Below, in pieces: positions 3,557 to 45,436 of a DNA stretch of 64,000 nucleotides (the first letter of the stretch is position 1; every line of letters begins with the position of its first letter). A program made the position numbers and the translations under genes. This stretch comes from Bacteroidales bacterium (lineage in GTDB: Bacteria > Bacteroidota > Bacteroidia > Bacteroidales > F082): the NCBI GenBank assembly GCA_030690365.1, contig JAUYGX010000033.1:1-64000 (forward strand). The letters run 5' to 3'. The notes beneath the pieces are model-generated. The model had not been told where the DNA came from, did not search any database, and saw only the letters and a list, made by a program, of their open reading frames with translations.

Positions 3557-4210
3557 CTATATCTCAATAATATTATTCTTAATTGCAAACTTCACCAAAT
3601 CAACTGTGGTTTTTAAATTGATTTTCTTCATGATGTTGTTTTTATGGGTTTCTACCGTTCGTACGCTGATAAACAGTTTTTCAGCAATGGCCCGGTTCGA
3701 GGTGCCTTCGGCAAATAGCTTTAGTACTTCCATCTCACGGTCGGATAAATCTTTCTGGCGATGTTCCTTCTCCGTATTGTCGATGTCCTTGTCGCTTAAA
3801 TAGCTCGAAAGCAAGATGTTGGTAATTGTTTTGGCATAATATTCAAATCCATTGCGAAGCGTATAAATGGCTTCCAACATCTCGGAACGGTTGGAGTCGC
3901 GTGCCAGGTGGCCCTTTGCACCTGCTTTAATCATCTTAAGGATAAAGGTTTCGTCGTTGTACATCGACAAAATCAACACCTTGATTTTGGGAAACCGGTA
4001 CAATAAAAGCTTAACATCCTCCGCATCTTTTACATCGGGATTGTAATTTACAAACAGTGTAACATGAACATGCTCTTCTGCATTTTTGTGGATCATCTCT
4101 TCGATGGAGGTCGCTGTAAAAGTTACCTCAATATCATCGGCCCCGGCCAATAAGGCTTTGATGGCATCGCATACCACCGGGTGTTCGTCAATAAGTGCCA
4201 CTCTGATCAT
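3557..4210 (-). CDS. NarL/FixJ-type response regulator with LuxR HTH; receiver domain atypical
   Basis: N-terminal receiver-like fold (VALIDEHPVV) and LuxR HTH (LSDREMEVLKLFAEGTSNRAIAEKLFISVRTVETHKNNIMKKI). Confidence 0.9.
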   Translation of the reverse strand: MIRVALIDEHPVVCDAIKALLAGADDIEVTFTATSIEEMIHKNAEEHVHVTLFVNYNPDVKDAEDVKLLLYRFPKIKVLILSMYNDETFILKMIKAGAKGHLARDSNRSEMLEAIYTLRNGFEYYAKTITNILLSSYLSDKDIDNTEKEHRQKDLSDREMEVLKLFAEGTSNRAIAEKLFISVRTVETHKNNIMKKINLKTTVDLVKFAIKNNIIEI

Positions 4211-5390: not shown

Positions 5391-8300
5391 ATGACAAAAC
5401 GCCAGAATTTTAGATACATCAGCCTGCTCGAAATTATGAATAAAGTGGACAGGATACTGCGTCAGAAAAAAACCATCCAACAGACATTTACCGAAATTGT
5501 AAACTCAGTCCCATTTAGTCAGGTGTTGCAGGTACCGGTTCGGATAAAACTCTCTTATAATAATGAAGAGTACAGTTCTCCGGCGTTTAAAAATGAGGTG
5601 GTTTGTCAGCAGCATCATTTTGCTACGCACAACGGAAATCATGGATATATACAACTTTGTCTTGGTTCAGCTGAATATCAGGAGAAGGAATTGATGCCTA
5701 TGGAGCAAAATTTTTTGCTCGAAAGTTTGTTACGCAGCATACAGCAATTCCTGAATGCCGTTGAACATAAGAAACATAATTCGGTAAATAATGGTGGTAA
5801 AAATTTAACCGATACCAATGGAAAGGTAACCTCTGGATTTCTACAGCGTTTTTTAAATGCAAACACCTTTAACAGAGATATATACCACGATCTTATGCCC
5901 TATAAGGTGGGCGAAATTTTATTGATTTCGAGCTTATACGATGCCTATGCCATCGAACGCGAAGGCCGGTTTACCGAACATATGCTTGGTCAGTACGGAC
6001 ATTTAAACCTGACTTCCTTTCCGCGAATTACCGGAGCCACCAGCCTTGATCAGGCTTTAAATCTGTTGAAATACAAGCATTTCGACCTGATTATTTATAT
6101 GGTTGGTGCCGATAAAAAACTTCCGTTGACGGTTAGCGAACAGGTAAACAAAATCTATCCCTTTATCCCCATTTTTCTGTTGTTAAACAACAGCAGCGAT
6201 GTGGCTTTTTACAGCAAAATGCTTCAGGATATTCCTTTTATCGACAAGCTGTTTACCTGGAATGGGGATGCCAACATCTTCTTTGCCATGATCAAGATGT
6301 TGGAAGACAAGCTGAATGTGGAAAACGATACCCAGCTCGGACAGGTAAGGGTGATACTGATTGTGGAAGATTCACCAGAATATTACTCCCGTTACCTGAG
6401 TTTTTTGTACAAAGTGTTGATGGAGCAAACCAAGCGGATAATTGACGATGTAAGCACAGACGAACTGTACAAAGTCCTCAGGATGCGGGCTCGTCCGAAA
6501 ATACTATTGGCCTCTAATTACGAAGAAGCGAAGGAGGTAATCGACAATTACCAGGATTACATGCTTTGTCTGATTACAGATGTAAAATTCGATCGTGAAA
6601 ATGTTTTGGACGAAAATGCCGGCATTGCCCTACTTGAGTATACACGGAATAAGCTGCGTAATCTGCCTGCAATTTTACAGTCATCCGATAGTTCTTATGA
6701 ACAGATTGCTGAAGAGCATAGTTCGCTTTTCGTTCATAAACAATCGGACACCCTGTATCAGGATTTGGAAAATTTTATCAAAAACTACCTTGGATTCGGC
6801 GATTTTGAGTTTAAAGATATGAAAGGGGAGACCATTGCCCGGGCTTCCAATATGCGCGAATTCGAAAAGTACCTGAAGATCATATCTGATGAGTCGCTGA
6901 TTTATCACGCCAGTCGCGATCATTTTTCCATGTGGATTATGGCACGTGGCGAAATCAGGGCTGCCAGTATCATCAACCTGAAAAAAGTAGCCGATTTTAA
7001 GGATGCCCATGAATTGCGTCACGATTTGCTTCAAATGCTCAAGGAATACCGAAACGAAGAATCTGCCGGAAATGTAATCCCTTTCGAACCAGGGATGGAA
7101 GTAACGGAGGAAAATGTTTACACCCTGGCCGAAGGTTCCCTTGGGGGAAAGGGTCGGGGACTGGCCTTTATTGATGCACTCATCCACAAATATGACTTCA
7201 ACAGGTTTATTCCAGATATCCGGGTGCGTACACCCAAAACGTTTGTGGTGGGAACGCGAGAGTTTGAAACTTTTATAAAGAACAACCAACTGGAAACGGA
7301 TGTTTTTGCACAAAAGGATTTTTATCTCCTGCAAAAGAAATTTATCAAAGGCAGCTTGTCGGCTGCTCTGTTGCAAAAGATTGAAAGCTTGTTAACCAGC
7401 ATTTATAAGCCCATCGCAGTGCGGTCGTCCGGTCTATTCGAAGATTCGCTTACTCAACCATTTGCCGGGGTTTTTGAAACATATCTGTTGCCCAACAACC
7501 ACCCGGATATCCATGTGCGTACCCAACAGGCTGCCGATGCCATCAAGCTGGTTTTCGCTTCGGTGTACAGTGCCAATGCGATGGGATATGTAAAAGCCAT
7601 CGATTATAAAATCGAAGACGAGAAAATGGCCGTTGTGATTCAGGAAGTAGTAGGTAATCAATTCGATAACTATTATTATCCGCACATTAGCGGTGTGGCA
7701 CAATCGTATAATTTTTATCCGTTTGCCCACATGAAACCGGATGAAGGTTTTGCCGTAATGGCCGTCGGATTGGGACGTTATGTGGTTGATGGAAACAAAG
7801 CCTACCGGTTTTCGCCACACTATCCCGGAACTGAAATCAATTCGACCAAGGATCAGTTTCGTAATTCACAGGTTAGATTTAATGCGGTTGATTTAAACAA
7901 AATAAATCTCGATCTGCTGGAAGGTGAAATGGCCGGGCTTGCTGAACTCGACATCGACGTGGCTGAAAAACACGGCGCGCTTAAACATTGTGCTTCGGTG
8001 TATAATGCCGACAGCGACACCATGTATCCCGGACTTTCAAAACCTGGACCGCGTATTGTAAATTTTGCCAATGTATTGAAATACAACTATATTCCATTGG
8101 CTAATACCATTGAGTTGCTTTTAGGTCTGGGACGCGATGCGATGGGGAATGCCGTGGAGATTGAATTTGCAGTTGACCTTGAAAAAGATGAAAAAGGAAG
8201 GGCTTCTTTTTACATACTTCAAATCAAACCACTTATATCCAATACAATGGAATGTCAGATCGATCTGGAAGAAGAAGATAAGGATTCCATTTTGCTGTAT

Positions 8301-8810
8301 TCCGAAAAGGGTATGGGAAACGGCATTGTTGATGATGTTACTGATGTAATTTATGTTGATCAAAATAAGTTCGACAAGTTGAAAACCAGGGAAATGGCTT
8401 TGGAAATTGAAACGCTGAACCAGGAAATGATAAATCAAAAACGGAAATATATCCTGATTGGTCCTGGAAGATGGGGTACACGCGATCGTTGGATAGGCAT
8501 TCCTGTAAAATGGCACATGATTTCAAATGCACGGGTGATTGTGGAAACCAGTTTTGATGATTTCCCGCTGGACGCCTCTTCCGGATCTCACTTTTTTCAC
8601 AATGTAACCAGCATGAATGTAGGCTATTTCACCGTACAACCTGAACTGTCATACAGTTATATCAACTACAAAATACTGGATAATCAACCACTGATTTTTC
8701 AGGGCGAATATTTTAAACATGTACGATTCGAAACTCCCATGAAAGTAAAAATGGATGGCCGTAAGCGAATTTATCTCATTAGTACTAACGAAAACTCACC
8801 TGCAAAATAA
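5391..8810 (+). CDS. PEP/pyruvate-binding (PPDK_N-like ATP-grasp) protein with N-terminal sensor-like region and tandem receiver-like domains
   Basis: ATP-grasp signatures GSLGGKGRGLAFIDALI, IAVRSSGLFEDSLTQPFAGVFETY, MAVVIQEVVG; receiver VILIVEDSPEYY/CLITDVKF/ILQSSDS/FVHKQSD; C-terminal IGPGRWGTRDRWIGIPVKW. Paralog of 42425-45436. Confidence 0.85.
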   Translation: MTKRQNFRYISLLEIMNKVDRILRQKKTIQQTFTEIVNSVPFSQVLQVPVRIKLSYNNEEYSSPAFKNEVVCQQHHFATHNGNHGYIQLCLGSAEYQEKELMPMEQNFLLESLLRSIQQFLNAVEHKKHNSVNNGGKNLTDTNGKVTSGFLQRFLNANTFNRDIYHDLMPYKVGEILLISSLYDAYAIEREGRFTEHMLGQYGHLNLTSFPRITGATSLDQALNLLKYKHFDLIIYMVGADKKLPLTVSEQVNKIYPFIPIFLLLNNSSDVAFYSKMLQDIPFIDKLFTWNGDANIFFAMIKMLEDKLNVENDTQLGQVRVILIVEDSPEYYSRYLSFLYKVLMEQTKRIIDDVSTDELYKVLRMRARPKILLASNYEEAKEVIDNYQDYMLCLITDVKFDRENVLDENAGIALLEYTRNKLRNLPAILQSSDSSYEQIAEEHSSLFVHKQSDTLYQDLENFIKNYLGFGDFEFKDMKGETIARASNMREFEKYLKIISDESLIYHASRDHFSMWIMARGEIRAASIINLKKVADFKDAHELRHDLLQMLKEYRNEESAGNVIPFEPGMEVTEENVYTLAEGSLGGKGRGLAFIDALIHKYDFNRFIPDIRVRTPKTFVVGTREFETFIKNNQLETDVFAQKDFYLLQKKFIKGSLSAALLQKIESLLTSIYKPIAVRSSGLFEDSLTQPFAGVFETYLLPNNHPDIHVRTQQAADAIKLVFASVYSANAMGYVKAIDYKIEDEKMAVVIQEVVGNQFDNYYYPHISGVAQSYNFYPFAHMKPDEGFAVMAVGLGRYVVDGNKAYRFSPHYPGTEINSTKDQFRNSQVRFNAVDLNKINLDLLEGEMAGLAELDIDVAEKHGALKHCASVYNADSDTMYPGLSKPGPRIVNFANVLKYNYIPLANTIELLLGLGRDAMGNAVEIEFAVDLEKDEKGRASFYILQIKPLISNTMECQIDLEEEDKDSILLYSEKGMGNGIVDDVTDVIYVDQNKFDKLKTREMALEIETLNQEMINQKRKYILIGPGRWGTRDRWIGIPVKWHMISNARVIVETSFDDFPLDASSGSHFFHNVTSMNVGYFTVQPELSYSYINYKILDNQPLIFQGEYFKHVRFETPMKVKMDGRKRIYLISTNENSPAK

Positions 8811-8840
8811 ATTGTATCATTGTCTTCCTCTTGCTTTTGC

Positions 8841-8872
8841 GAAACCTGAAAACCAATCGGTTTTGGAGGTTC
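8841..8872 (+). terminator. Hairpin following the 1139-aa gene
   Basis: GAAACCTGAAAACC-AATC-GGTTTTGGAGGTTC forms a near-perfect stem. Confidence 0.5.
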
Positions 8873-9071
8873 GTTTTGGAAAAAATTGACAGATTAAATT
8901 TTTGTCCCTTCCAAAATCATACCCATAACCCTCATGTCAATATCAACAAGGAATTGAAAGCCATTGTGGGACCTATCATTATTCAGACTTAGTATAAATT
9001 TCGGAGGCTTCCGTGCCAGTTGTTTTACATTTAGTAATTTTCGCGATTCTAAAATTATAAAGCGCAAATCT

Positions 9072-9596
9072 ATGAGAATTTCCAGGAAGAAAATCAGTCT
9101 GCAAGCAGTTGAAATACCTGAAGTTAACATTTCTCTCATAAATCCGATCATACAAAAGTATCAGGGTAAAAAGGGTAACCTCATTCCTGTCCTTCAGGGC
9201 GTGCAGGGACTGTATGGATACGTGCCCAGGGAAGCGTTTATCAAACTCAACGAGGAAATGGGACTCAAGCTAAACGACATGTATGGCGTGGCTACCTTTT
9301 ATGCCCAGTTCAGGTTAAGTCCTGTGGGGAAACATATCATAAAGGTATGTCATGGTACAGCGTGTCATGTTCAGAGTGCCACAAAAATTACCGAAGCACT
9401 TGAATCAGAATTGGGGGTTAAAGATGGACATACCACCGAGGATGGCCTCTTTACACTCGAATCGGTAGCCTGCCTGGGATGTTGCTCATTGGCACCGGTG
9501 ATGATGGTAGACGATGAGACTTTCGGTAGTTTAAACGGTAAAAAAGCCGCCAGGGCGATCAAAGAAATTCGCCGCAGAGAAACCCAGCATTCTTAG
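9072..9596 (+). CDS. NuoE/HndA/HydC-like [2Fe-2S] thioredoxin-fold subunit
   Basis: GVATFYAQFRLSPVGKHIIKVCHGTACHVQSA...CLGCCSLAPVMMVDDETFG (CxxxxC...CxxxC). ORF opens at 8964, but homology and an upstream TAATTTTC element favour ATG 9072. Confidence 0.9.
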   Translation: MRISRKKISLQAVEIPEVNISLINPIIQKYQGKKGNLIPVLQGVQGLYGYVPREAFIKLNEEMGLKLNDMYGVATFYAQFRLSPVGKHIIKVCHGTACHVQSATKITEALESELGVKDGHTTEDGLFTLESVACLGCCSLAPVMMVDDETFGSLNGKKAARAIKEIRRRETQHS

Positions 9597-9659
9597 GTCA
9601 GGTAGTAGGAAGAAGTCCTTCCACAGATAGGAAATTGTAAATGAGATAAACAGTTACAG

Positions 9660-11435
9660 ATGAAAAAACAAATTATTGTGGGATTGGGAAGTTGCGGTAT
9701 TGCGGCCGGTGCAGGCAAGGTATTCGCCAAAGCCCAGTCGCTGATCGAAACCGGAAACTTCGAAGCCGACCTTAAACAAACCAGTTGCATTGGTATGTGC
9801 TACAAAGAGCCACTGGTAGAGGTTGTGGACGAAAAAGGCCATTACATTTATGGCGACATGGATGTGAAAAAACTGGAAGAACTATTCGAAAAACATATAA
9901 AAAACAATGTGGTAATCGAAGATTACGTGGTTGAGTCGGATGTGATCAAAGGCCACGAATCTCATTACTTCGCCGGACAGGTTAAAATCGCCCTGCGCAA
10001 TTGCGGATACATGGATCCCGAATCTATCGAAGAAGCTGAAGCACGCAAGGCTTACCAGGCCATCCGTAAAATTGCAGCCGATAAAGTAAGCCCTGAAGAG
10101 GTGATCCAAACTGTTTTCGATTCCGGCATCCGTGGTCGTGGAGGCGGTGGTTTTCCAACCGGTCTTAAATGGCGCTTTGCGCGAAACAGCCAAAGCGACG
10201 AAAAATATATCATCTGCAATGCCGACGAAGGCGATCCTGGTGCTTTCATGGACCGGTCGCTACTCGAAGGCGACCCGCATGCCGTTCTCGAAGGGATGAT
10301 CATCGGCGCCTATGCCATGAAAGCAACAGGCGGTGTTATCTATTGCCGTGCCGAATACCCCCTGGCCATCAAGCGCCTGAACATCGCGTTGATGCAGGCC
10401 CGTACCAAAGGATATCTGGGTAAAAACATCCTCGGAATCGAAGGTTTTGACCTGGACATTTTCGTTAAGGAAGGTGCTGGCGCTTTTGTATGTGGTGAAG
10501 AAACGGCCCTGATTGCGTCCGTTGAAGGCGAACGCGGAATGCCCCGCAAACGGCCTCCTTTCCCGGCCGAACGGGGTCTCTGGAATAAACCCACCAACAT
10601 CAACAATGTTGAGACTTTTGCCAACATACCCTACATCGTTTTGAATGGGGCCGATGCCTACAACAAGTACGGCACTGAAAAAAGCAAAGGAACCAAGGTG
10701 TTTGCCCTTACGGGAAAAATCAAACATGGTGGTTTGGTGGAAGTGCCCATGGGCGTTTCCATTCGCGAGATTATTTACGATTTGGGAGGCGGCATTCAGG
10801 AAGATAAAAAATTCAAGGCGGTGCAGCTGGGAGGTCCTTCCGGGGGATGTATCCCCGAATCGCTTATCGATACCAAAGTGGATTACGATTCGGTAAATGC
10901 TACCGGAGCCATCATGGGTTCTGGTGGGATGGTGGTGATGGACGAAACAACCTGCATGGTCGACATGGCCAGGTTCTTCCTTAACTTCACACAGGAGGAA
11001 TCCTGCGGAAAATGTACGTTTTGCCGCATTGGAACCAAACGCATGCTCGAAATTCTTACCCGCATTACCCACGGTGAAGGCAAAGAAGGAGACATTGAAC
11101 TACTACAGGAACTTTCTCAACAAATTAAAGATGGTTCGCTTTGCGGGCTGGGTCAAACGGCTCCCAATCCGGTTTTAACCACCATCAAGTATTTCCGCGA
11201 TGAGTACGAAGCCCACATAAAAGATAAAAGATGTCCTGCCAAGAATTGCAAGGCACTCCTGACCTATGAAGTGATTCCTGAAAATTGTACCGGCTGTACG
11301 GTTTGTGCCGTCAAGTGTCCATCAGGTTGTATTGATGGTTCCCGCAAGGAAATTCATTTCATCAACCAGGAAGCCTGTATTAAGTGTGGTGAATGTTTTG
11401 CCGGTTGTAATTTCGAAGCCATCAGGGTTTATTAG
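9660..11435 (+). CDS. NuoF/HndC/HydB-like NAD(P)H-binding flavoprotein with N-terminal [2Fe-2S] and C-terminal 2x[4Fe-4S]
   Basis: GRGGGGFPTGLKW, CNADEGDPGAFMDRSLLEGDPH, ESCGKCTFCRIGTKRM, CTGCTVCAVKCPSGC...CIKCGECFAGC. Confidence 0.94.
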   Translation: MKKQIIVGLGSCGIAAGAGKVFAKAQSLIETGNFEADLKQTSCIGMCYKEPLVEVVDEKGHYIYGDMDVKKLEELFEKHIKNNVVIEDYVVESDVIKGHESHYFAGQVKIALRNCGYMDPESIEEAEARKAYQAIRKIAADKVSPEEVIQTVFDSGIRGRGGGGFPTGLKWRFARNSQSDEKYIICNADEGDPGAFMDRSLLEGDPHAVLEGMIIGAYAMKATGGVIYCRAEYPLAIKRLNIALMQARTKGYLGKNILGIEGFDLDIFVKEGAGAFVCGEETALIASVEGERGMPRKRPPFPAERGLWNKPTNINNVETFANIPYIVLNGADAYNKYGTEKSKGTKVFALTGKIKHGGLVEVPMGVSIREIIYDLGGGIQEDKKFKAVQLGGPSGGCIPESLIDTKVDYDSVNATGAIMGSGGMVVMDETTCMVDMARFFLNFTQEESCGKCTFCRIGTKRMLEILTRITHGEGKEGDIELLQELSQQIKDGSLCGLGQTAPNPVLTTIKYFRDEYEAHIKDKRCPAKNCKALLTYEVIPENCTGCTVCAVKCPSGCIDGSRKEIHFINQEACIKCGECFAGCNFEAIRVY

Positions 11436-11461
11436 TCAACGCATTAAATTGATTTTGAATT

Positions 11462-14400
11462 ATGAGTGAGACCATCAATATAAAACTGAACGGAAAAGTT
11501 GTAGAAGGCATTCAGGGTGAATATATCCTGGATGTGGCACGACGCAATAACATCGAAATTCCGACCCTGTGCAACGATCCGCGGCTCGATCCTTTTTCCT
11601 CTTGCTTTGTGTGTGTGGTGGAGATTGAGGGCATGCGCGGGCTTCACCCAAGCTGTTCCACACGGATTATGCCGGGAATGAACATCGTCACCGACAACGA
11701 AAAAGTACATCAGTCGCGCAAGACAGCGCTCGATTTGATCATGAGTAACCACTATGCCGACTGTCAGGCTCCCTGTATTCAAACCTGTCCGGCCAATGTG
11801 GACGTACAGGGCTATATTTCGCTCATCGACAAGGGGATGTACCACGAAGCGGTGGCGTTGATCAAGGAGGTGAATCCGTTGCCTGCCATCTGCGGTCGTG
11901 TATGCGTGCGCCCTTGTGAGGCCGCTTGCCGCCGTAACCTGATGGATGAAGGTGCTCCTGTGGGCATTGATTACATGAAACGCTTTGCCAGCGACTGGGA
12001 TCTGGATTCTGAAAATCATTTCAAACCGGAAGTAGCACCTTCAACAGGTAAAAATGTGGCCATCATCGGAGCAGGTCCGGGCGGACTTTCTGCGGCCTAT
12101 TTCCTGCAACAAAAAGGACATCAGTGCGATATCTTTGAAGCCGGCCCAAAACCCGGCGGTTGGTTGCGTTATGGAATTCCGGAGTACCGGTTGCCAAACG
12201 ATCTGCTGGACAAAGAAATTGAAACCATTACCGAATTGGGAACCAACATTTATTGTGGTAAGAATCTGGGTGTGAATTTATCCTATGCCGACATTGCAAA
12301 GGAATACGATGCCACTATCCTTACCATCGGTTCGCAAAAAGGAACCTTAATAGGAACTCCCGGCGATGATGCCGAAAATGTATTTTCAGGGATTGATTTT
12401 CTGAAAAACATGGAGATGACAGGCAAGCCTGCCGATTTCACAGGAAAGAAAATCATGGTGGTAGGTGGTGGAAACACAGCCATGGACTGTTGCCGTACTT
12501 CCATCCGTTGCGGAAGTACCGATGTTAAAGTCGTGTACCGCCGTACCGAAAAGGAAATGCCTGCCAATCCAATCGAAATCCACGAATCGAAGCTCGAAGG
12601 GGTGGAATATTTATTCCTGAACAATCCTGTTCAGGTAAACAAAGATGCTGAAGGCAAGCTGAAATCGGTTACCTTGATAAAAATGGAATTGGGTGAGCCC
12701 GATGCTTCCGGCAGAAGACGTCCGGTACCAGTGGAAGGTTCTGAATATGAGCTGGAAGTGGATTATATCCTGGCAGCCATCGGGCAAAAAACAGAGGTAA
12801 ACTTCATTGATGACATCAATAAATTTGCACCGGAAGGCCAGCTGGCGCTTTCCCGCTGGGGCGATATTGGAGCCGATAAAAATACCCTCCAGACCGGAAT
12901 TCCCAGTGTGTTTGCAGCTGGTGACGGCGTTACAGGACCGGCCACCATCATCGAAGCCATTGCCCAAGCCAGGAAAGCCTCTCTCTCCTGCCATCAATTC
13001 CTGAGTGGCGAAGGGTTGGCTCCTCAAAAAAGACCTTTCCTGAGCAAAAAGGACCACTTCAAAAAGCAAATTCCGGCTGATTTTGTCGACAGTTATGTTC
13101 ATCAAACACGGGAAGAAATGCCCACCCTCGATCCGGATAACCGCATCAATTTTAAAGAAGTGGAGTTGGGATATGTGGATGAAACAGTGGCCAGGAATGA
13201 AGCCCAGCGTTGCCTGGAGTGTGGTTGTCAGGAATTTTTACACTGCGATTTGCAGCGCTATTCAGATGAATACGGTGTGGATCAGGAGAAATTTGCCGGT
13301 GATTTTAACGAGTATCGTGTAGATTTTTCACATCCTTTTGTAGAAATCGACAACAACAAATGTATCCTGTGTTCGCGGTGTATCCGCATATGCAGTGAAT
13401 TGGCCGGCGACAATGCCCTGGGCTTGGTAAACCGTGGATTTAGTACCTATGTGGCTCCAAGTTTGGGCAACAAACTTACAGATACCCATTGCCAGTCGTG
13501 TGGTTTGTGTATCGACACTTGTCCGACAGGTGCAATCTCCGAAAACTTCCTGTTTAAACCAGGCCCGGTAAAAGAAAAGGCACTTGAAGCCATCGACAAT
13601 TATGGTTCTGAAGGTGTTAGCATGAACCTGATGTCGCATAAGAATAATTTTGTGATGCGTGTAGAAGGCCGCCCAGGGCTTGTCAATGAGCAGGGAAGCA
13701 TCGGCCGCAAGGCGAAATTTGGCTACCGTTACCTCAATTCTTCTTCAAGGATTAAAACACCCATGCTGAACAAGGGTGATGCTTTCGTACCCATTACCTT
13801 TGAGGCAGCTTACGAATTAATTGCTCAGAATATAAAGGGAGTCGCTCCTAATGAGACTGCCGTATTTGCAGGCGCACGTCTCACCAACGAAGAAATCTAT
13901 CTGGTTCAGAAATGGGCCAGAAAAGGCATTAAAACACCGTTTATTTCCAATTTCCATTATTTGGGCAGGGGCAGGGGATATGCCATTAATTCACAAAAAA
14001 ATGTTCCTTTCGACCAACTTGCCGGGGCCTCAAAAATTTATGTTCTTGGTGCTGATCTGGCTGAAGATCATGATTATGTCGGGTTTCTGGTAAACAATGC
14101 AAGGGTCAAAAAAGGAGTGAAGGTAGAGTTGATTTCTACCAACACCAATCCAGGTTCATTGCACAAGGTGGACAACCATCTGACTATAAAGGATTATTAC
14201 TCTTTTGTAAAAGCGGCCAACATGTACCTGGTGAAAAAAAGGTTGCAAAACCAGATGTACATCGATGCTAACACAACAGGCTTTGAGGAGTATGTAAAAC
14301 CCATTCATGAATGGGTTTTACATGACATGTGCCTCAAAGCCGGCGTTTCAATGGATAACCTCGAAAACTGGGCACTGGCCTATAACAATGAGATGAACGC

Positions 14401-15109
14401 CGTGGTCGTTTTCTCTGAAAAGTACATCACCGCCAACACCAGCCGTGAGTTGTACAACCTGGCGATGATTACAGGCAAATTGGGTAAAACTTCAAGCGGA
14501 CTTATGCCTCTTAAGGAGAAAAACAATTCACAGGGATTGTTTGATATGGGTGGCTTTGGTTGCATCAAAACAGGTGGAATTGAAATTCCGCGTGGCGACC
14601 GGCCTAAGATGAAACAAGAACTTCGAAACAAAGGGTTTAAAAACATCGTGGTTTTTGGTGAAGATCCCATCGGAACAGCTATAGATAAAACTGAGGTTTC
14701 CGGTTGGTTTGCCGATGTGCCTTTTGTAGTGGTTCAGGATTATTTTATGACGGAAACCGCTAAATGTGCACATCTGGTTTTACCTGCTTCTTTCCCCATG
14801 GAATCGGCAGGAAGTTTTACTAATACGCAAAAAGTACTACAGCAATTCGACCGTCAAATGGAACCAAAAATCGGGCAAACCAACCTCGATCAGCTGATTT
14901 CGTTGGGAAAACAATTTGAACTGAATGGATTGTCGGATGCAGGTGAGGTGTTTTCTGAAATAATAGGACATCTTTCTGTATTGGAAGACCAGCCCATGGC
15001 ATTCATGCATACCGATGGTAATTCACCAGAGCGGATGTTTAACCACGGTTGCGATTACCTGATGAAGCGCTTCGACGATGAATTTCAAGAGGCTTTTAAT
15101 CGATATTAA
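11462..15109 (+). CDS. Fusion: NuoG-like [2Fe-2S]/His-ligated [4Fe-4S] + GltD-like NAD(P)H oxidoreductase + 2x[4Fe-4S] + degenerate NuoG/FdhA-like molybdopterin-oxidoreductase domain
   Basis: CNDPRLDPFSSCFVCVVEIEG...C; HYADCQAPCIQTCPANVDV; ICGRVCVRPCEAACRR; VAIIGAGPGGLSAAYFLQQKGH; VVGGGNTAMDCCRT; CILCSRCIRIC...CQSCGLCIDTCPTGA; MPLKEKNNSQGLFDMGG. Confidence 0.92.
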   Translation: MSETINIKLNGKVVEGIQGEYILDVARRNNIEIPTLCNDPRLDPFSSCFVCVVEIEGMRGLHPSCSTRIMPGMNIVTDNEKVHQSRKTALDLIMSNHYADCQAPCIQTCPANVDVQGYISLIDKGMYHEAVALIKEVNPLPAICGRVCVRPCEAACRRNLMDEGAPVGIDYMKRFASDWDLDSENHFKPEVAPSTGKNVAIIGAGPGGLSAAYFLQQKGHQCDIFEAGPKPGGWLRYGIPEYRLPNDLLDKEIETITELGTNIYCGKNLGVNLSYADIAKEYDATILTIGSQKGTLIGTPGDDAENVFSGIDFLKNMEMTGKPADFTGKKIMVVGGGNTAMDCCRTSIRCGSTDVKVVYRRTEKEMPANPIEIHESKLEGVEYLFLNNPVQVNKDAEGKLKSVTLIKMELGEPDASGRRRPVPVEGSEYELEVDYILAAIGQKTEVNFIDDINKFAPEGQLALSRWGDIGADKNTLQTGIPSVFAAGDGVTGPATIIEAIAQARKASLSCHQFLSGEGLAPQKRPFLSKKDHFKKQIPADFVDSYVHQTREEMPTLDPDNRINFKEVELGYVDETVARNEAQRCLECGCQEFLHCDLQRYSDEYGVDQEKFAGDFNEYRVDFSHPFVEIDNNKCILCSRCIRICSELAGDNALGLVNRGFSTYVAPSLGNKLTDTHCQSCGLCIDTCPTGAISENFLFKPGPVKEKALEAIDNYGSEGVSMNLMSHKNNFVMRVEGRPGLVNEQGSIGRKAKFGYRYLNSSSRIKTPMLNKGDAFVPITFEAAYELIAQNIKGVAPNETAVFAGARLTNEEIYLVQKWARKGIKTPFISNFHYLGRGRGYAINSQKNVPFDQLAGASKIYVLGADLAEDHDYVGFLVNNARVKKGVKVELISTNTNPGSLHKVDNHLTIKDYYSFVKAANMYLVKKRLQNQMYIDANTTGFEEYVKPIHEWVLHDMCLKAGVSMDNLENWALAYNNEMNAVVVFSEKYITANTSRELYNLAMITGKLGKTSSGLMPLKEKNNSQGLFDMGGFGCIKTGGIEIPRGDRPKMKQELRNKGFKNIVVFGEDPIGTAIDKTEVSGWFADVPFVVVQDYFMTETAKCAHLVLPASFPMESAGSFTNTQKVLQQFDRQMEPKIGQTNLDQLISLGKQFELNGLSDAGEVFSEIIGHLSVLEDQPMAFMHTDGNSPERMFNHGCDYLMKRFDDEFQEAFNRY

Positions 15110-15126
15110 CCCAAAACACAAAAAAC

Positions 15127-16125
15127 ATGGCAGATCTGAGTACAAGATACCTGGGATTAAACTTACGTAACCCGTTGGTGGTAGCCAGTTCGGGACTCAC
15201 CGATTCGTTAACCAAAATCATTGAACTCGAAAAACACGGAGCCGGGGCTGTAGTGCTGAAATCGCTGTTTGAAGAGCAAATCCTGATGGAGGCCGACTAC
15301 CGCATACGTAAAGCAGAAGAGCATGGCGAGTTGTTTGTGGAGTATAGCGAAACTTTCGATTATGCTGATGTTCACATCAAAGAGCAAGAGTTAGGTAACT
15401 ACCTGAAATTGATAGAGGAGGCAAAAAGCACTGTCCGGATTCCGGTAATAGCCAGCATCAATTGCATGTCGACCATCGAATGGACCGATTTTGCAAAGCG
15501 CATCGAAAAAGCCGGAGCAGATGCCCTGGAACTGAACATCTTTGTGGTGCCTTTTAATTTGAAGAATTCGTGCGAAACCAATGAAAAGACCTATTACCAT
15601 GTTCTTCAAAAGGTGAAAAAGGCTGTTCGCATTCCGGTGGCCATTAAAATCAGCCCTTATTTTAGCAACCTGGGCAAGGTGATCAAGGGGCTAGAGGAAA
15701 ATCATGCCGATGGTGTGGTTTTGTTTAACCGGTTTACTAGCCCCGACATCGACATCTACAACATAAAAACCACTGTGGCAGAGGTGTTGAGTTCTCCGGT
15801 GGAGATGGCCAATTCGTTGCGCTGGGTGGCCATGATGGCTAAACGGGTAAACATGGATTTGGCTGCCACTACCGGCATTCATAATGGCGAAGCAGTGGTG
15901 AAACAGTTGCTGGCCGGTGCCACTGTGGTACAAATGGCTTCGGCTTTGTACATAAACGGTCCTGCATATATCGAAAAAGTACTTGCCTTTGTAACCAACT
16001 GGATGGATGAAAAGGGGTTTGAAACCCTGTATCAGGTTCGTGGCAAGCTTAGTCAGGCAACCACCGTTAATCCGGAAGTGTATGAACGTCTTCAGTTTAT
16101 GAAGTATTTTAGCGAATACAAGTAA
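15127..16125 (+). CDS. Dihydroorotate dehydrogenase-like flavoprotein
   Basis: TRYLGLNLRNPLVVASSGLTDSLTKIIELEKHGAGAVVLKSLFEEQI, TIM-barrel pattern, ATTGIHNGEAVVKQLLAGATVVQMASALYING; 17 nt downstream of the preceding gene. Confidence 0.88.
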   Translation: MADLSTRYLGLNLRNPLVVASSGLTDSLTKIIELEKHGAGAVVLKSLFEEQILMEADYRIRKAEEHGELFVEYSETFDYADVHIKEQELGNYLKLIEEAKSTVRIPVIASINCMSTIEWTDFAKRIEKAGADALELNIFVVPFNLKNSCETNEKTYYHVLQKVKKAVRIPVAIKISPYFSNLGKVIKGLEENHADGVVLFNRFTSPDIDIYNIKTTVAEVLSSPVEMANSLRWVAMMAKRVNMDLAATTGIHNGEAVVKQLLAGATVVQMASALYINGPAYIEKVLAFVTNWMDEKGFETLYQVRGKLSQATTVNPEVYERLQFMKYFSEYK

Positions 16126-38407: not shown

Positions 38408-41400
38408 TTAAACGGTAACTGAAGAGTAAGGATCCACCCTGCGATTCGTCACTTTATAAAGGGGAGGAGGGAGTGATATGATTACTTCCGTTCCGTGAGC
38501 TTCAGGATCAGTCACGCTCAGATCTTCAAAAACAATGGGTTGTGTGAGATTCATTTTTGTGCTCAGCAAACGAAGTCGTTCTTCGATGATATGTATCCCT
38601 TTTGAAATGTGGTCTTCTTTTTTATGTTTGCTTGCTTCGTTAATTCCTATTCCATTGTCGGTTATCTTTATGATCAACGACCGGCCAATGACCGAATCAA
38701 TATCCACTTTCTCAAAAGTAAATGCTACTGTAAGCATACCACTTTTACCCGAATTGATGATGCCATGCCAAAGGGAGTTTTCTACAAAAGGTTGGATGAT
38801 CATGTTTGGAATCAAAATGGAATTGGTTTCAAGGTCTGCTCCAGTAGTAATTTCATAGGAAAAGCTCTCCTGAAACCTCAATTTTTCAATGTCAAGGTAG
38901 AGTTTCAACCTGTCAATTTCATCGGATAGCCTGATGAATCCCTTGCCTGCTGTATCAAGATTTTTCCTCATTAATTTGGCCATCATCGCAATGTAATTAT
39001 TGGCATCCTCATACTTCCTGCTGTTGACCAGGTATTGAACCGAGTTCAGTGAATTTGCAATAAAATGTGGGTTCATCATGGCAGATAATGCCTGATGTTT
39101 CAGTTCGTTGATTCGCTCAGTAAGGGCAAGTTCTTTATTTGCCTTTAAAGTATTCAACTTCAGGCTCAACATTAATATAAAAAGACCTGTTATCACAAGG
39201 AGGAATATCATCAGTAAGTAAAACCAGGTGGTTTCGGTAAACCGTGGCAGAACGCTAAAACTCAATACATATGGTTCACTCCACAATGTGTTTTGAGCCT
39301 TGGCAATTATTTTGAGGTTGTAGGTGCCGTTTTTAAGGCTGATAAAGTTCAGGGAGTTGTAATCCGTTGTCAGCCAATCGTTATTCAAACTATACTTGTA
39401 CGTTACCGAACCTGGTGAGGAAAAATGGATGGCCTGAAAGTCGATGGATATATCGTGCTGTTCAGGTTTGAAAATCAGGTTGTTGTAATTTATGTAGGTT
39501 GAGTCACCGGCTTTAACCTCGGTGACAATTACTTTGGGAGCCTTTGGTTGGTAATGGTCGAAGTTGTCAATATCCAGTATCGAAATGCCATTGCTGGTTC
39601 CAATGATAAGTGAATTGTTGGTGCTGTCGTAAAATAACGAAAGTACCTCATTGGATGGAAGACCTGTTTGCTTGCTGAGATATTTAATTGAATTATTTTC
39701 AAGTAGATAAAGGCCTTTCATGTTCCCAATCCATTTCCTGTTTTGGCTATCAGAAACAATGGTTGTGGAGGAAAACAAATCATAATCAGCCAGTGAGGCA
39801 AAGCTGACAACCGAATCATTTTTGAGGTTGTAACTGGCGATACCCTTGTCACCAGCGAACCAAATTTGCTGATTTTTGTCTTCAAAAATGGAGTTTATCC
39901 TTGAGTTCAATACACTGTTGTCCGAAAAAAATAATTTTGTCATTTCTAGATTACCCAGTGCATTGGTTTTGAATTGGGCCTTACATAATCCATGTCCTGT
40001 TGCAATCCATATATTATTTTCAGAATCCTCAAAAATGTCATTTACACGGTTGATATAGGTACTGTCGCCAAATAGAGTGAAATAGGCAGGAACTTCCTGC
40101 TCTGGTACAAGCGTTTGCTGAACAGCAATACTATTTTTATGTGTTCCGAAAATATGTAAGCCGCTTTCGGTTTTACAAAACGAAGGTTTATTTAAAAGAT
40201 AAAACCTGATACCGTGGTAGACTAGCTGAATATCTTCATTTCCCCCAAAAGTGCCGCATACGTATATATCATTGTTGATATTCTGGATGCTATATACCAC
40301 TTCGGTCAGTGTCTTTCCGGTATTGCCTTTAATCTGGTCGAACATCCCGTTTTCAAGAACATTGATGTCATTAAAGGTTCCTATCAACAATTTCCCTGAT
40401 TTTTCCTTGGCAATGGCGTAAATATTGTTGTTACTCAGTCCGTCGTTTTCATTGTAGTTTTTCAGGTATAAGTTATTCAAACAATACACGCCTTTACCAA
40501 AAGTGCTGATCCAGATATTTCCTTCGTTGTCCTCAAGATAGCTGTTGACCAGGGTTTGCTGCAGGCCCATGGTTTTTCCGATATCGATAATTTCGTCAGA
40601 TCCATTTGGAATAAAGAAAAATCCGCTGTTCATTATCGAAAACCAGATGTTGTTCTCTTTATCGATAAGCAGTGCACAAACATCATTGTTACCGGCGATC
40701 TGAATCTTGATTTTTCTTATTACCTCCTTATTCTTTACTTGATAAATCATCCCGCTGGTGCCGATGAAGTAAGTGCTGTCGATTCCTTTTGCCATTACGA
40801 GGAGGTTGGTATCGGGAAGCCCGGAGATATTTAGTATTGATAACTTATTGTGGTCGAGTTGATACAGTCCCGATTCACACAATGCAAGCAGTTGACCATT
40901 GGGAAGCAAGGCCAATCGGTTGATGTAAATAGGAGGTGATAGAAGCACCCGATAGGAAATCGGCATGCCTGTTTTTTCGTGTATTAAATTGATTTCACCC
41001 CATTTACGGTATGCATAGAGTGTTTGTTCATCGCTTTTCAAGCTGTCGAGCAACAAAAACGAAATCGCCATACTTTTTCCATTAATATGGCGGCAATAGT
41101 CCTCAATCCGGCCATTTCTAACAACGTTGATTCCTTTCTCATAATTTCCGATATATATTTCACCCTGTCTGCCTTCGGCCAGGGTAATAATTGAATTTGA
41201 ATTCAGCCCGTCGGTGGTGTGAAAGTTGGTAAACCGCACACCATCAAAACGACTTATGCCGTTAAGGGTGGCGAACCAAATAAAGCCATCGCGACCCTGA
41301 ACAATCTGGAATACAGTAGATGAAGCCAGTCCGTCAGAGGATGTATAATGATAATAGGCCGGTTTTTGTGCGTACAGCACAACGGACAGGAGCATTCCCG

Positions 41401-41434
41401 TAAAAACGAGCATTAACGGCCGAAGAATACGCAT
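38408..41434 (-). CDS. Two-component regulator-propeller sensor with LytS-type histidine kinase (His_kinase PF06580)
   Basis: Propeller repeats (DGFIWFATLNGISRFDGVRF, GNIWISTFGKGVYCL), Y_Y_Y-like region, kinase box MNPHFIANSLNSVQYLV and ITDNGIGINEA. Confidence 0.93.
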   Translation of the reverse strand: MRILRPLMLVFTGMLLSVVLYAQKPAYYHYTSSDGLASSTVFQIVQGRDGFIWFATLNGISRFDGVRFTNFHTTDGLNSNSIITLAEGRQGEIYIGNYEKGINVVRNGRIEDYCRHINGKSMAISFLLLDSLKSDEQTLYAYRKWGEINLIHEKTGMPISYRVLLSPPIYINRLALLPNGQLLALCESGLYQLDHNKLSILNISGLPDTNLLVMAKGIDSTYFIGTSGMIYQVKNKEVIRKIKIQIAGNNDVCALLIDKENNIWFSIMNSGFFFIPNGSDEIIDIGKTMGLQQTLVNSYLEDNEGNIWISTFGKGVYCLNNLYLKNYNENDGLSNNNIYAIAKEKSGKLLIGTFNDINVLENGMFDQIKGNTGKTLTEVVYSIQNINNDIYVCGTFGGNEDIQLVYHGIRFYLLNKPSFCKTESGLHIFGTHKNSIAVQQTLVPEQEVPAYFTLFGDSTYINRVNDIFEDSENNIWIATGHGLCKAQFKTNALGNLEMTKLFFSDNSVLNSRINSIFEDKNQQIWFAGDKGIASYNLKNDSVVSFASLADYDLFSSTTIVSDSQNRKWIGNMKGLYLLENNSIKYLSKQTGLPSNEVLSLFYDSTNNSLIIGTSNGISILDIDNFDHYQPKAPKVIVTEVKAGDSTYINYNNLIFKPEQHDISIDFQAIHFSSPGSVTYKYSLNNDWLTTDYNSLNFISLKNGTYNLKIIAKAQNTLWSEPYVLSFSVLPRFTETTWFYLLMIFLLVITGLFILMLSLKLNTLKANKELALTERINELKHQALSAMMNPHFIANSLNSVQYLVNSRKYEDANNYIAMMAKLMRKNLDTAGKGFIRLSDEIDRLKLYLDIEKLRFQESFSYEITTGADLETNSILIPNMIIQPFVENSLWHGIINSGKSGMLTVAFTFEKVDIDSVIGRSLIIKITDNGIGINEASKHKKEDHISKGIHIIEERLRLLSTKMNLTQPIVFEDLSVTDPEAHGTEVIISLPPPLYKVTNRRVDPYSSVTV

Positions 41435-42183
41435 TATACGGATTTTAAAAATGATTTTACTTTTTGAATAAAATCCGGTGTTTTCCGTCGTGATATTTCA
41501 ACCTTGCTGCCATCGGTCAGTGTGACGAAGTTTCCACTCAGGTTCGAAAAGTCTTTGATGTACTTTAAGTTGATAATGTGCGATTTATGTGTTCTGAAAA
41601 ACGGATGTTTTGATAAGGTTACTTCAAAATTCTTTAGCGTACGCGAAACGATGGTGGTTTTGCCTTCTTTGGTGGTGATGGTTGTATAGCATCCATCTGC
41701 TTCAAGTCTGAGGATATCTTCAATATTGAGCACGTCGAATCCATGAGTGCCCGGAATAACCAGTTTGTCCATTTCAGTCGTAGAACCTTCTTTTTGCATT
41801 TTTTGCTTAAGCAAACCTAGCTTCTTTACTGTTTGCTTTAATTCCTTGATGCTGATGGGTTTCATGAGGTAATCCACAGCTCCGGCTTTCAATGCATGTA
41901 TTCCAAATTCTTCGTGAACACTTACAAACACCACCATAAAGCTGCGTTCGTCATATTCCTCCAGAAAATCGAAACCATCCAGTACCGGCATGTTAATATC
42001 GAGAAATACAACTTCCGGATGAACCCTGCTAACCAATACTCTTGCTGCGACCACTGAATCGGCCAGCCCCTGAATTTCCAATTCAGGACAGTATGTTTCG
42101 ATGATTTGCTTCAGGTTTTCCCTTCCGTGTAACTCATCATCCACAATAATGGCCGTTATTTTATCCGCATTTTGAGTAGGCAT
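41434..42183 (-). CDS. LytTR-family response regulator
   Basis: Receiver AIIVDDELHGRENL...VVFLDINMPVLDGFDF; LytTR domain FRTHKSHIINLKYIKDF...LTDGSKVEISRRK. Confidence 0.95.
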   Translation of the reverse strand: MPTQNADKITAIIVDDELHGRENLKQIIETYCPELEIQGLADSVVAARVLVSRVHPEVVFLDINMPVLDGFDFLEEYDERSFMVVFVSVHEEFGIHALKAGAVDYLMKPISIKELKQTVKKLGLLKQKMQKEGSTTEMDKLVIPGTHGFDVLNIEDILRLEADGCYTTITTKEGKTTIVSRTLKNFEVTLSKHPFFRTHKSHIINLKYIKDFSNLSGNFVTLTDGSKVEISRRKTPDFIQKVKSFLKSV

Positions 42184-42424: not shown

Positions 42425-45400
42425 ATGCTGGCAATGATTAATACAAAGGCGGAATTGCTCAAACAGAGTTTTTACGATAGCGATGCTGCGTTTATCAACC
42501 TGATGAAAAAACGCATTTACCACGTTTTGCTTATATCCAGCGTTTACGATGCGTTTATGTTGGAGGAAGACGGCCGCATTGATGAACAGATTTTTCAGGA
42601 ATATACCTCGCTCAGCCTGCGGTATCCGCCTCAATTTTACAAAGCCACCACACAGAATGAGGCTTTGCAGATTTTAGAAGAGGAAAACATCGACCTGGTG
42701 ATCACCATGCTCAGTGCCGAAAAGGGGAATACCATCTCGCTGGCCAAGGCTATTAAATCAAGATATTCCGATATTCCCATCGTGATGTTGACTCCGTTTT
42801 CACGTGAAGTGAGCTTAAAACTCACCAAACTTAAACACGAGTCCATTGACTATATCTTTAGCTGGCTTGGCAATGCCGATATCCTGCTGGCCATCATCAA
42901 ACTGATTGAAGATAAGATGAATGCCGAATATGATGTGACGGAAGTTGGCGTTCAGGTGATTATTCTGGTAGAAGACAACATTCGGTTCTATTCGAGTTAT
43001 CTCCCAATCATATACAAAATCATTTTTAATCAGTCGCAAACATTTGTTTCAGAAGGACTTAACGAGCATCAGCGAATGCTACGCATGCGCGGACGTCCAA
43101 AAATACTGATGGCCACCAACTACGACGAGGCCATGGCCATTTACGAAAAGTACAAGCACAATGTGCTGGGCATCGTGTCGGATATTTCTTATCCGCGCAA
43201 TGGGGTAATGGACAAGGAAGCAGGTATCCGGTTGAGCAGAAAGGTAAAAAAGGACAATAAATATACACCTGTATTGTTGCAGTCTTCCGACCCCGAAAAT
43301 CGGTGGAAAGCCAAGGAGATCAGGGTGGGATTTCTCGACAAAAATTCCAAAAGTCTGACCTTCGATTTACGCGAGTTTATAAAAGAGTACTTTGGGTTCG
43401 GCGATTTTGTATTTAAAGATCCCCACATGGGCATCGTGGTTGGGCGTGCCCGCGATTTAAAGGATTTGCAGGAGAAAGTATATAAAATCCCCACAGCTTC
43501 GTTAAGGTACCACATCGAGCGCGACCATTTTTCAAAATGGTTGAGGGCCAGGGCTTTATTTCCCCTTGCAGAATTGTTCAGGGCGTTTAAATCAGACGAC
43601 TTCAGCGATTGTGATGAAACCAAGAAGTTTATCTACGATTCTATTTCTGAATTCAGAATGGCCAAAGCACGTGGAGTTATTTCGTCGTTTAACCGCGATA
43701 ATTTCGATCGGTATTTCAGTATTTCACGCATTGGTCAGGGTTCGGTGGGTGGCAAGGCACGCGGACTGGCTTTTCTCGACTCGTTGATCAACCGTAACAA
43801 ACTCTACAATCATTATGAGAAAATAGAAATTGCCATCCCGAAAACGGTGGTGCTTGGCACAGATGTTTTCGATGAATTTATGGAGTTGAACAAGCTTTAT
43901 CATGTGGCTTTTTCAAACGATCTTTCGGATGAGGAAATCCTGGGCCGTTTTTTAAATGCCAAATTGCCACAACATGTATATGGTGATCTGTTTACCATTT
44001 CTGTGGCCATTTCAAAACCAGTGGCCATACGGTCGAGTAGCTTGCTCGAAGATTCACATTATCAGCCTTTTGCCGGAATTTACAATACTTACATGCTGCC
44101 CCTGATCGACCACGACAGAAGTCAGATGTTCGAGATGATGGTCACAGCTATCAAAGCGGTGTATGCCTCTGCCTATTATCACGACAGCAAAGCCTACATG
44201 ATGGCTACTTCCAATGTGATTGATGAAGAAAAAATGGCCATTATCATTCAGGAAGTATGCGGAACGGTGTATGGCGATCGCTATTATCCCACTTTTTCGG
44301 GAGTAGGTCGTTCCATCGATTATTATCCACTGGCACCTTGCGTACCATCAGATGGCACGGTAAGTCTGGCGCTTGGATTGGGAAAATATATTGTGGATGG
44401 CGGGCTTTCGCTTCGGTTTAGTCCAAGCTTTCCGCAAAACGTACTTCAGACCTCCACACCCGATATGACACTCCGGGAAACCCAAAAAGAGTTTTTCGCC
44501 CTCGACTTAAACCGGATTACCTTTACACCCACTCCCAACGACAGTGCTAACCTGCTTAAGTTGCGGGTGAAAGCCGCCGAAGAGGATGATGCTATCCGCG
44601 ACATTTCGTCCACCTACGATTTGCACAACCATGTAATACGTGATGGTTACAGCGATGGCGGAAAAAAAGTGATTACCTTTTCGAATATTTTAAAACACAA
44701 CAGTTATCCCATCGCCGAAATCCTGCAAAGGGTACTTCAATTGGGCGAAAGGGAAATGGGCAATCCCGTTGAGATTGAATTTGCCGTGGACCTGAACACC
44801 AGCAAGGGCGACAGGGCTACCTTTTATTTACTGCAGATCAGGCCCATCGCCGTTAAGGAGGAAAGTATTACGCTGGATTTGGATAAAATTGTCCGCGATC
44901 AATCGCTTATAATTTCAAAATCAGCACTGGGGAATGGTACCATCGACGACATCTGCGACGTGGTTTATATACGACCCGAGAATTTCAACGCTGCCAACAA
45001 CCAGAAGGTGATTCCCGTTATCGATCAATTGAACAGCGAATTTTTAAAATCTGGAAAAAACTACATCCTCATTGGTCCCGGACGCTGGGGTTCCAGCGAC
45101 CCATGGTTGGGGATACCTGTTAAGTGGCCACAAATCTCGGGTGCACGATTGATAGTAGAATCCGGTCTGGCCAATTACCGCATCGATCCGAGCCAGGGAA
45201 CTCACTTTTTTCAAAATCTAACTTCCTTCCGGGTGGGGTATTTTACCATCAATCCATTTATTAACGATGGATATTACGACCTGCCTTTTTTAGATCAAAC
45301 ACCAGCGGTTTTCGAGAATGAATATATCCGGCACATCAGATTCGATAAGCCTTTGATGATCAGAATTGATGGTAAACACAACCTGGGTGTGATCGAAAAA

Positions 45401-45436
45401 CCTGTGGAAGAGCCTGTTTCTGAGAGTGAAGTATAG
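42425..45436 (+). CDS. PEP/pyruvate-binding (PPDK_N-like ATP-grasp) protein with tandem receiver-like domains; paralog of 5391-8810
   Basis: VIILVEDNIRFYSSYL/GIVSDISYP/LLQSSD/FLDKNS receiver; GSVGGKARGLAFLDSLI, VAIRSSSLLEDSHYQPFAGIYNTY ATP-grasp; IGPGRWGSSDPWLGIPVKW. Start may be ATG 42434. Confidence 0.85.
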   Translation: MLAMINTKAELLKQSFYDSDAAFINLMKKRIYHVLLISSVYDAFMLEEDGRIDEQIFQEYTSLSLRYPPQFYKATTQNEALQILEEENIDLVITMLSAEKGNTISLAKAIKSRYSDIPIVMLTPFSREVSLKLTKLKHESIDYIFSWLGNADILLAIIKLIEDKMNAEYDVTEVGVQVIILVEDNIRFYSSYLPIIYKIIFNQSQTFVSEGLNEHQRMLRMRGRPKILMATNYDEAMAIYEKYKHNVLGIVSDISYPRNGVMDKEAGIRLSRKVKKDNKYTPVLLQSSDPENRWKAKEIRVGFLDKNSKSLTFDLREFIKEYFGFGDFVFKDPHMGIVVGRARDLKDLQEKVYKIPTASLRYHIERDHFSKWLRARALFPLAELFRAFKSDDFSDCDETKKFIYDSISEFRMAKARGVISSFNRDNFDRYFSISRIGQGSVGGKARGLAFLDSLINRNKLYNHYEKIEIAIPKTVVLGTDVFDEFMELNKLYHVAFSNDLSDEEILGRFLNAKLPQHVYGDLFTISVAISKPVAIRSSSLLEDSHYQPFAGIYNTYMLPLIDHDRSQMFEMMVTAIKAVYASAYYHDSKAYMMATSNVIDEEKMAIIIQEVCGTVYGDRYYPTFSGVGRSIDYYPLAPCVPSDGTVSLALGLGKYIVDGGLSLRFSPSFPQNVLQTSTPDMTLRETQKEFFALDLNRITFTPTPNDSANLLKLRVKAAEEDDAIRDISSTYDLHNHVIRDGYSDGGKKVITFSNILKHNSYPIAEILQRVLQLGEREMGNPVEIEFAVDLNTSKGDRATFYLLQIRPIAVKEESITLDLDKIVRDQSLIISKSALGNGTIDDICDVVYIRPENFNAANNQKVIPVIDQLNSEFLKSGKNYILIGPGRWGSSDPWLGIPVKWPQISGARLIVESGLANYRIDPSQGTHFFQNLTSFRVGYFTINPFINDGYYDLPFLDQTPAVFENEYIRHIRFDKPLMIRIDGKHNLGVIEKPVEEPVSESEV

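Follow-up and report, generated by a model that had tools for sequence, protein, structure and literature searches.

A sensor, receiver and ATP-grasp protein family of Bacteroidota and its gene linkage to glutamate dehydrogenase

Domain architecture of the protein at 5391–8810

The forward strand of the window, which is the whole stretch of 64,000 nucleotides of Bacteroidales DNA that was analysed, carries at positions 5391–8810 (stop codon included) an open reading frame for a REC–PPDK_N protein of 1139 aa, here assigned to group A of its family. Relatives in the same genus, family and order are 44–88% identical over nearly the whole length, and the existence of these near full-length relatives in related genomes indicates that the frame is real and not a chance one, as the original prediction of a 1139-aa protein had supposed. 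In named Bacteroidales/Bacteroidetes metagenome genomes, the gene or a close relative was located at 15 loci, and a family member was found in 56 of the 61 relatives searched. Across the phylum, at least 25 of 148 genomes carry the family, a minimum figure, since a group A protein served as query and group B is only ~37% identical to it; many weak matches at the class level covered the receivers only and were disregarded. Environmental Bacteroidota commonly have the family, as do some Bacteroidota of the gut.

Domain parsing with profile HMMs and AlphaFold, which had been proposed together with the original prediction, gave a sensor, two receivers and PPDK_N, and no PEP barrel. From the N to the C terminus the protein consists of a small sensor, a receiver that lacks the acceptor Asp, an intact receiver, a DUF5752-like region, PPDK_N and a C-terminal domain of ~190 aa, all read from the forward strand. 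In a Pfam scan of 16 family members, all gave a PPDK_N match, 15 a DUF5752 match and 13 a Response_reg match. AlphaFold modelled the full-length protein with moderate quality (mean pLDDT of 73.9), and a phmmer search of the protein against the PDB returned no match. Two group A members (L083:1385–6046 and L135:6840, 1412 aa) carry ~270–400 aa of extra N-terminal sequence of no recognised kind.

The N-terminal ~125 aa, predicted to be sensor-like, matched the paralogue D sensor in a profile comparison (P=7e-19), and the domain (residues ~7–125, positions 5409–5765) is folded in the model. Two proteins encoded beside group A/B genes at another locus (L081:3319–4071 and 7918–9039) also start with a sensor of the group A type; judged by eye, one is small with a nucleotidyltransferase-like motif at its end and the other is a CRP/FNR-like regulator. 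The sensor is followed by tandem receivers, for which the top Foldseek match of the full-length model was PleD (E=1.1e-7). Receiver 1 (residues ~174–317, positions 5910–6341) had been described as having no recognisable acidic pocket and indeed lacks the acceptor Asp. Receiver 2 (residues ~320–470, positions 6348–6800), for which Response_reg matches were obtained in relatives, had been predicted to keep the pocket and contains all the elements of a response regulator, namely the acidic pair E326/D327, the acceptor D397, S431/S432 and K450, which are invariant in a 16-member alignment of groups A and B. No kinase gene adjoins the group A gene within the window. The DUF5752-like region (residues 480–550, positions 6828–7040) is matched by 15 of the 16 members, with a best E of 4.8e-6; the match of the 5391–8810 protein itself (0.0036) lies below the curated cut-off.

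The PPDK_N ATP-grasp (residues 583–951, positions 7137–8243) was detected by Pfam well above cut-off (E=2.3e-35), and no PPDK structure was among the listed Foldseek matches of the full-length model. The active site was counted in 110 family proteins belonging to groups A (48), B (43), C (7) and D (12). All 110 contain the GGK lysine (K587), and the RSS arginine (R678), the (D/E)xE glutamate (E923/E925) and the LQ glutamine (Q944) are nearly universal. By motif position and our knowledge of PPDK, we take R678 to be the equivalent of Arg92 and residue 946 to occupy the position of Arg337. On this motif-based assignment, the Arg337 position is a Lys (Lys946, LQIKP) in 48/48 group A proteins, and an Arg is found in groups B (LQIRP) and C (LQxRP) and in most of D, which suggests that group A may be altered or weak. 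The original prediction of intact PPDK_N signatures was therefore right for K587, R678, E925 and Q944, but not for the Arg337 position. The best partial NCBIfam matches over the ATP-grasp were PigC and PEP synthase. Neither Pfam nor NCBIfam gave a match to the PEP/pyruvate-binding barrel, and the protein ends ~190 aa past PPDK_N. A standard PEP synthase/PPDK identity, which would involve PF00391 and the barrel, was ruled out, and no match to the C terminus of such an enzyme emerged from Pfam, NCBIfam or Foldseek.

The remaining sequence (residues ~952–1139, positions 8244–8807) carries the motifs GxGRWGxxDxxxGIPV and SxG[S/T]HFF and is the most conserved block besides the ATP-grasp. The histidine of G[S/T]HF, which is His1067 (positions 8589–8591), occurs in 109 of the 110 family proteins. 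Modelled alone, the domain gave a confident structure (pLDDT 85.9, pTM 0.86). In PPDK it is the PEP-utilizer swivelling domain that follows PPDK_N, and its elements are expected to run β-α-β-α-β-α-β-β with a His opening the third helix. The modelled domain resembles it in a predicted order β-α-β-α-β-α-β-β, in the conserved His with which that helix begins and in a closing DG motif. No Pfam family matched this domain. Foldseek searches with its model returned nothing with E<0.07 in the PDB, and thus no swivelling fold, and no match among the viral models of BFVD. PF00391 was matched by 0/16 members and was absent at the 5391–8810 gene in a search of its own genome with E up to 10, and hhalign of the C-terminal profile against 28 genuine swivelling domains was not convincing (P=0.02–0.1). 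Because hhalign and both Foldseek searches left a swivelling identity unconfirmed, it is one that we only infer, and the model makes the domain a candidate divergent phospho-His domain. The claim that the protein lacks both the phospho-His module and the barrel accordingly stood in so far as no PEP-utilizer or barrel match was found, but a conserved domain with His1067 is present, and the strict conservation of this residue in the sequences makes the absence of any His module doubtful.

Paralogue groups and neighbouring genes

The genome from which the window derives encodes four paralogues. Besides the group A gene, the window contains on its forward strand a group B gene (42425–45436) for a protein of 1003 aa that is 37% identical to group A, lacks the sensor and keeps the Arg in LQIRP. 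Divergent from it lies a response regulator gene of the LytTR type (41434–42183, reverse strand; Pfam). A large sensor kinase-like protein is encoded with this regulator at 38408–42183 of the reverse strand, adjoining the group B gene. Paralogues C and D are arranged in tandem on another contig (C69). C corresponds to PPDK_N and the C-terminal domain alone, and D (L158:8088–11255, reverse strand) comprises a sensor, PPDK_N, the C-terminal domain and a nucleotidyltransferase (PF01909, E=1e-9). A metallophosphoesterase gene lies near paralogue D, and the order of the gene for a glutamate dehydrogenase (GDH) of 428 aa, C and D is kept in relatives. Judged from these sequences, the constant core of groups A–D is PPDK_N with the HFF domain, around which inputs and extra outputs are swapped.

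In the family of the window, the group A gene is divergent from a gene for a NarL/LuxR-type response regulator (3557–4210, reverse strand), identified by Pfam Response_reg and GerE matches, neighbourhood and alignment. In three loci (L178, L180 and L083) the regulator lies directly downstream of group A on the same strand. Among the group A neighbours sampled, only the regulator of L180 retains the acceptor Asp in its receiver (LLLD). The next neighbours of group A are frequently operons for NuoE/NuoF/NuoG-like, Nfn/GltD-like and DHOD-like proteins (names assigned by eye). In the window, the group A gene is followed at 8964–16125 of the forward strand by genes for NuoE, NuoF, a fused NuoG/GltD-like protein of 1215 aa and a DHOD-like protein.

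The survey of gene neighbourhoods, which had likewise been proposed with the original prediction, covered about 50 loci and revealed GDH genes beside family genes. When counted in 38 genomes, which were chosen for carrying the family and whose lineages are not independent, 40 of 85 GDH genes had a family gene no more than 3 kb away, where ~0.4 would be expected by chance; of the 67 family genes, 32 were equally close to a GDH gene. The linkage spans 23 of the 38 genomes and 13 families. It involves groups A, B and C/D and two GDH classes, both confirmed by Pfam, and gene order and strand vary. The 428-aa GDH usually precedes the C and D genes. In Parabacteroides distasonis, the group B gene and an NADP-dependent gdhA are divergently oriented, with a second GDH gene 3.5 kb on; a group B gene between two GDH genes is also found in Phocaeicola and in two further genomes. 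This spread of arrangements makes a single inherited accident an unlikely cause of the linkage. In the window's own genome, the window included, no GDH gene lies near A, B, C or D, and in its family GDH was near only 2 of about 17 group A loci examined. The linkage alone does not prove that GDH is the substrate.

Candidate mechanism and rival explanations

A phosphotransferase with an unknown acceptor, as originally predicted, remains the best reading of the ATP-grasp protein. The fuller version that we favour, tentatively and as something short of probable, is a signal-gated phosphotransferase of the PPDK_N class in which His1067 would be phosphorylated, the acceptor would be in trans and the likeliest target of the family would be GDH. 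The sensor and the phosphorylatable receiver 2 (Asp397) would set the state of the ATP-grasp, which would use ATP to phosphorylate His1067 of the divergent, putatively swivelling-type C-terminal domain. Since the PEP barrel is missing, the next step would be transfer in trans of the phosphoryl group, or of the state that it represents, to an acceptor other than pyruvate. Family-wide, the acceptor would most likely be GDH, with ammonia assimilation tuned to the nitrogen or redox state, and group A would probably act also via the adjacent NarL-type regulator. The phosphotransferase is suggested by the near-universal retention of the Lys, the Arg92 equivalent, the Glu and the Gln and by the nearly invariant C-terminal His with a swivelling-like element order after PPDK_N; against it were counted the Foldseek null and the hhalign values of the C-terminal domain and the Lys at the Arg337 position. 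Signal gating is suggested by the invariant pocket of receiver 2, a sensor common to other regulators and the conserved NarL-type partner. The choice of GDH as target follows from the numbers of linked GDH and family genes in three paralogue sets with varied layouts, and the scarcity of GDH near the paralogues of the window's genome and near group A in its family counts against it.

Some of the same observations would suit a regulator that senses nucleotides and is barely or not at all catalytic, whose ATP-grasp would bind ATP, ADP or AMP to gauge the energy state and which would act by binding GDH or the Asp-less NarL-type regulator. The uniform Lys of group A, the dead receiver throughout groups A and B, the Asp-less partner and a His loop that is poorly ordered in the models all point in this direction. 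However, 110 divergent members show essentially no change in K587, R678, E925, Q944 and His1067, and the Arg of LQxRP is kept in groups B and C, a conservation that is unusual for a dead enzyme, and we regard such a regulator as unlikely, if quite conceivable. The NCBIfam matches to PigC and PEP synthase, together with the GDH and NADPH/ferredoxin redox genes nearby, could instead indicate an enzyme of metabolism, a ligase or dikinase akin to PigC/RedH or rifampin phosphotransferase, working on a small molecule, perhaps near glutamate, under the allosteric control of the receivers. This seems distinctly improbable to us, because no substrate-binding domain was recognised and the swapping of sensor, receivers and nucleotidyltransferase round a constant core is signalling-like. 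Finally, the link could be one of gene regulation only, in which the family and GDH are co-expressed as both respond to nitrogen and the real target lies elsewhere. The group A genes in the window's family, which mostly stand beside redox genes (NuoEF or Nfn-like) and the NarL-type regulator and not beside GDH, would agree with this, whereas the recurrence of the linkage across GDH classes, paralogues, strands and lineages renders it very unlikely.

Given the linkage, the family may control ammonia assimilation in a way that has gone unnoticed; GDH is a main route of this assimilation in many Bacteroidota. Yamamoto and colleagues reportedly observed in 1987 that the GDH of Bacteroides fragilis undergoes reversible inactivation in vivo through an agent that was not identified. 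A conserved signalling phosphotransferase encoded adjacent to GDH is a concrete, deletable candidate for such control, and would couple two-component signalling to a metabolic enzyme directly, with no transcriptional step. A more daring proposal, possible but on the unlikely side, is that an unrecognised post-translational control of GDH operates across Bacteroidota, gut commensals included, through a receiver-gated ATP-grasp/His phosphotransferase with its nucleotidyltransferase relative as a second modifier.

Comparison with known systems

PEP synthase and PPDK (PF01326, PF00391 and the PEP-utilizer C barrel) share with group A the ATP-grasp family, its core K, R, E and Q and a conserved-His domain directly after the ATP-grasp. 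Group A differs from them in having no detectable PEP-utilizer domain and no barrel, in the sensor and receivers placed in front and in the Lys that replaces Arg337. The PigC/RedH ligases and rifampin phosphotransferase also use PPDK_N for chemistry other than PEP synthesis, but the group A protein matches them on the ATP-grasp stretch only and far below their family cut-offs. The resemblance to PleD lies in one working and one degenerate receiver ahead of an enzymatic output; group A, however, reverses their order, with the degenerate receiver ahead, and has PPDK_N in place of GGDEF as its output.

Fusions of one or more receivers to PPDK have been recorded, in the relevant excerpts of two censuses, as a 'Bacteroides-like combination' (PMC5847659, Galperin 2018) and as outputs enriched among Asp-less receivers (PMC4395418, Maule 2015). 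The original description of a receiver on PPDK_N without the barrel is correct, but the REC–PPDK fusion as such is not a new design, since these excerpts already contain it; the anatomy, the C-terminal domain, a linkage to GDH and a target are absent from them. No paper joining the family to GDH was found in the literature searched, within which the C-terminal anatomy and the GDH linkage appear to be new.
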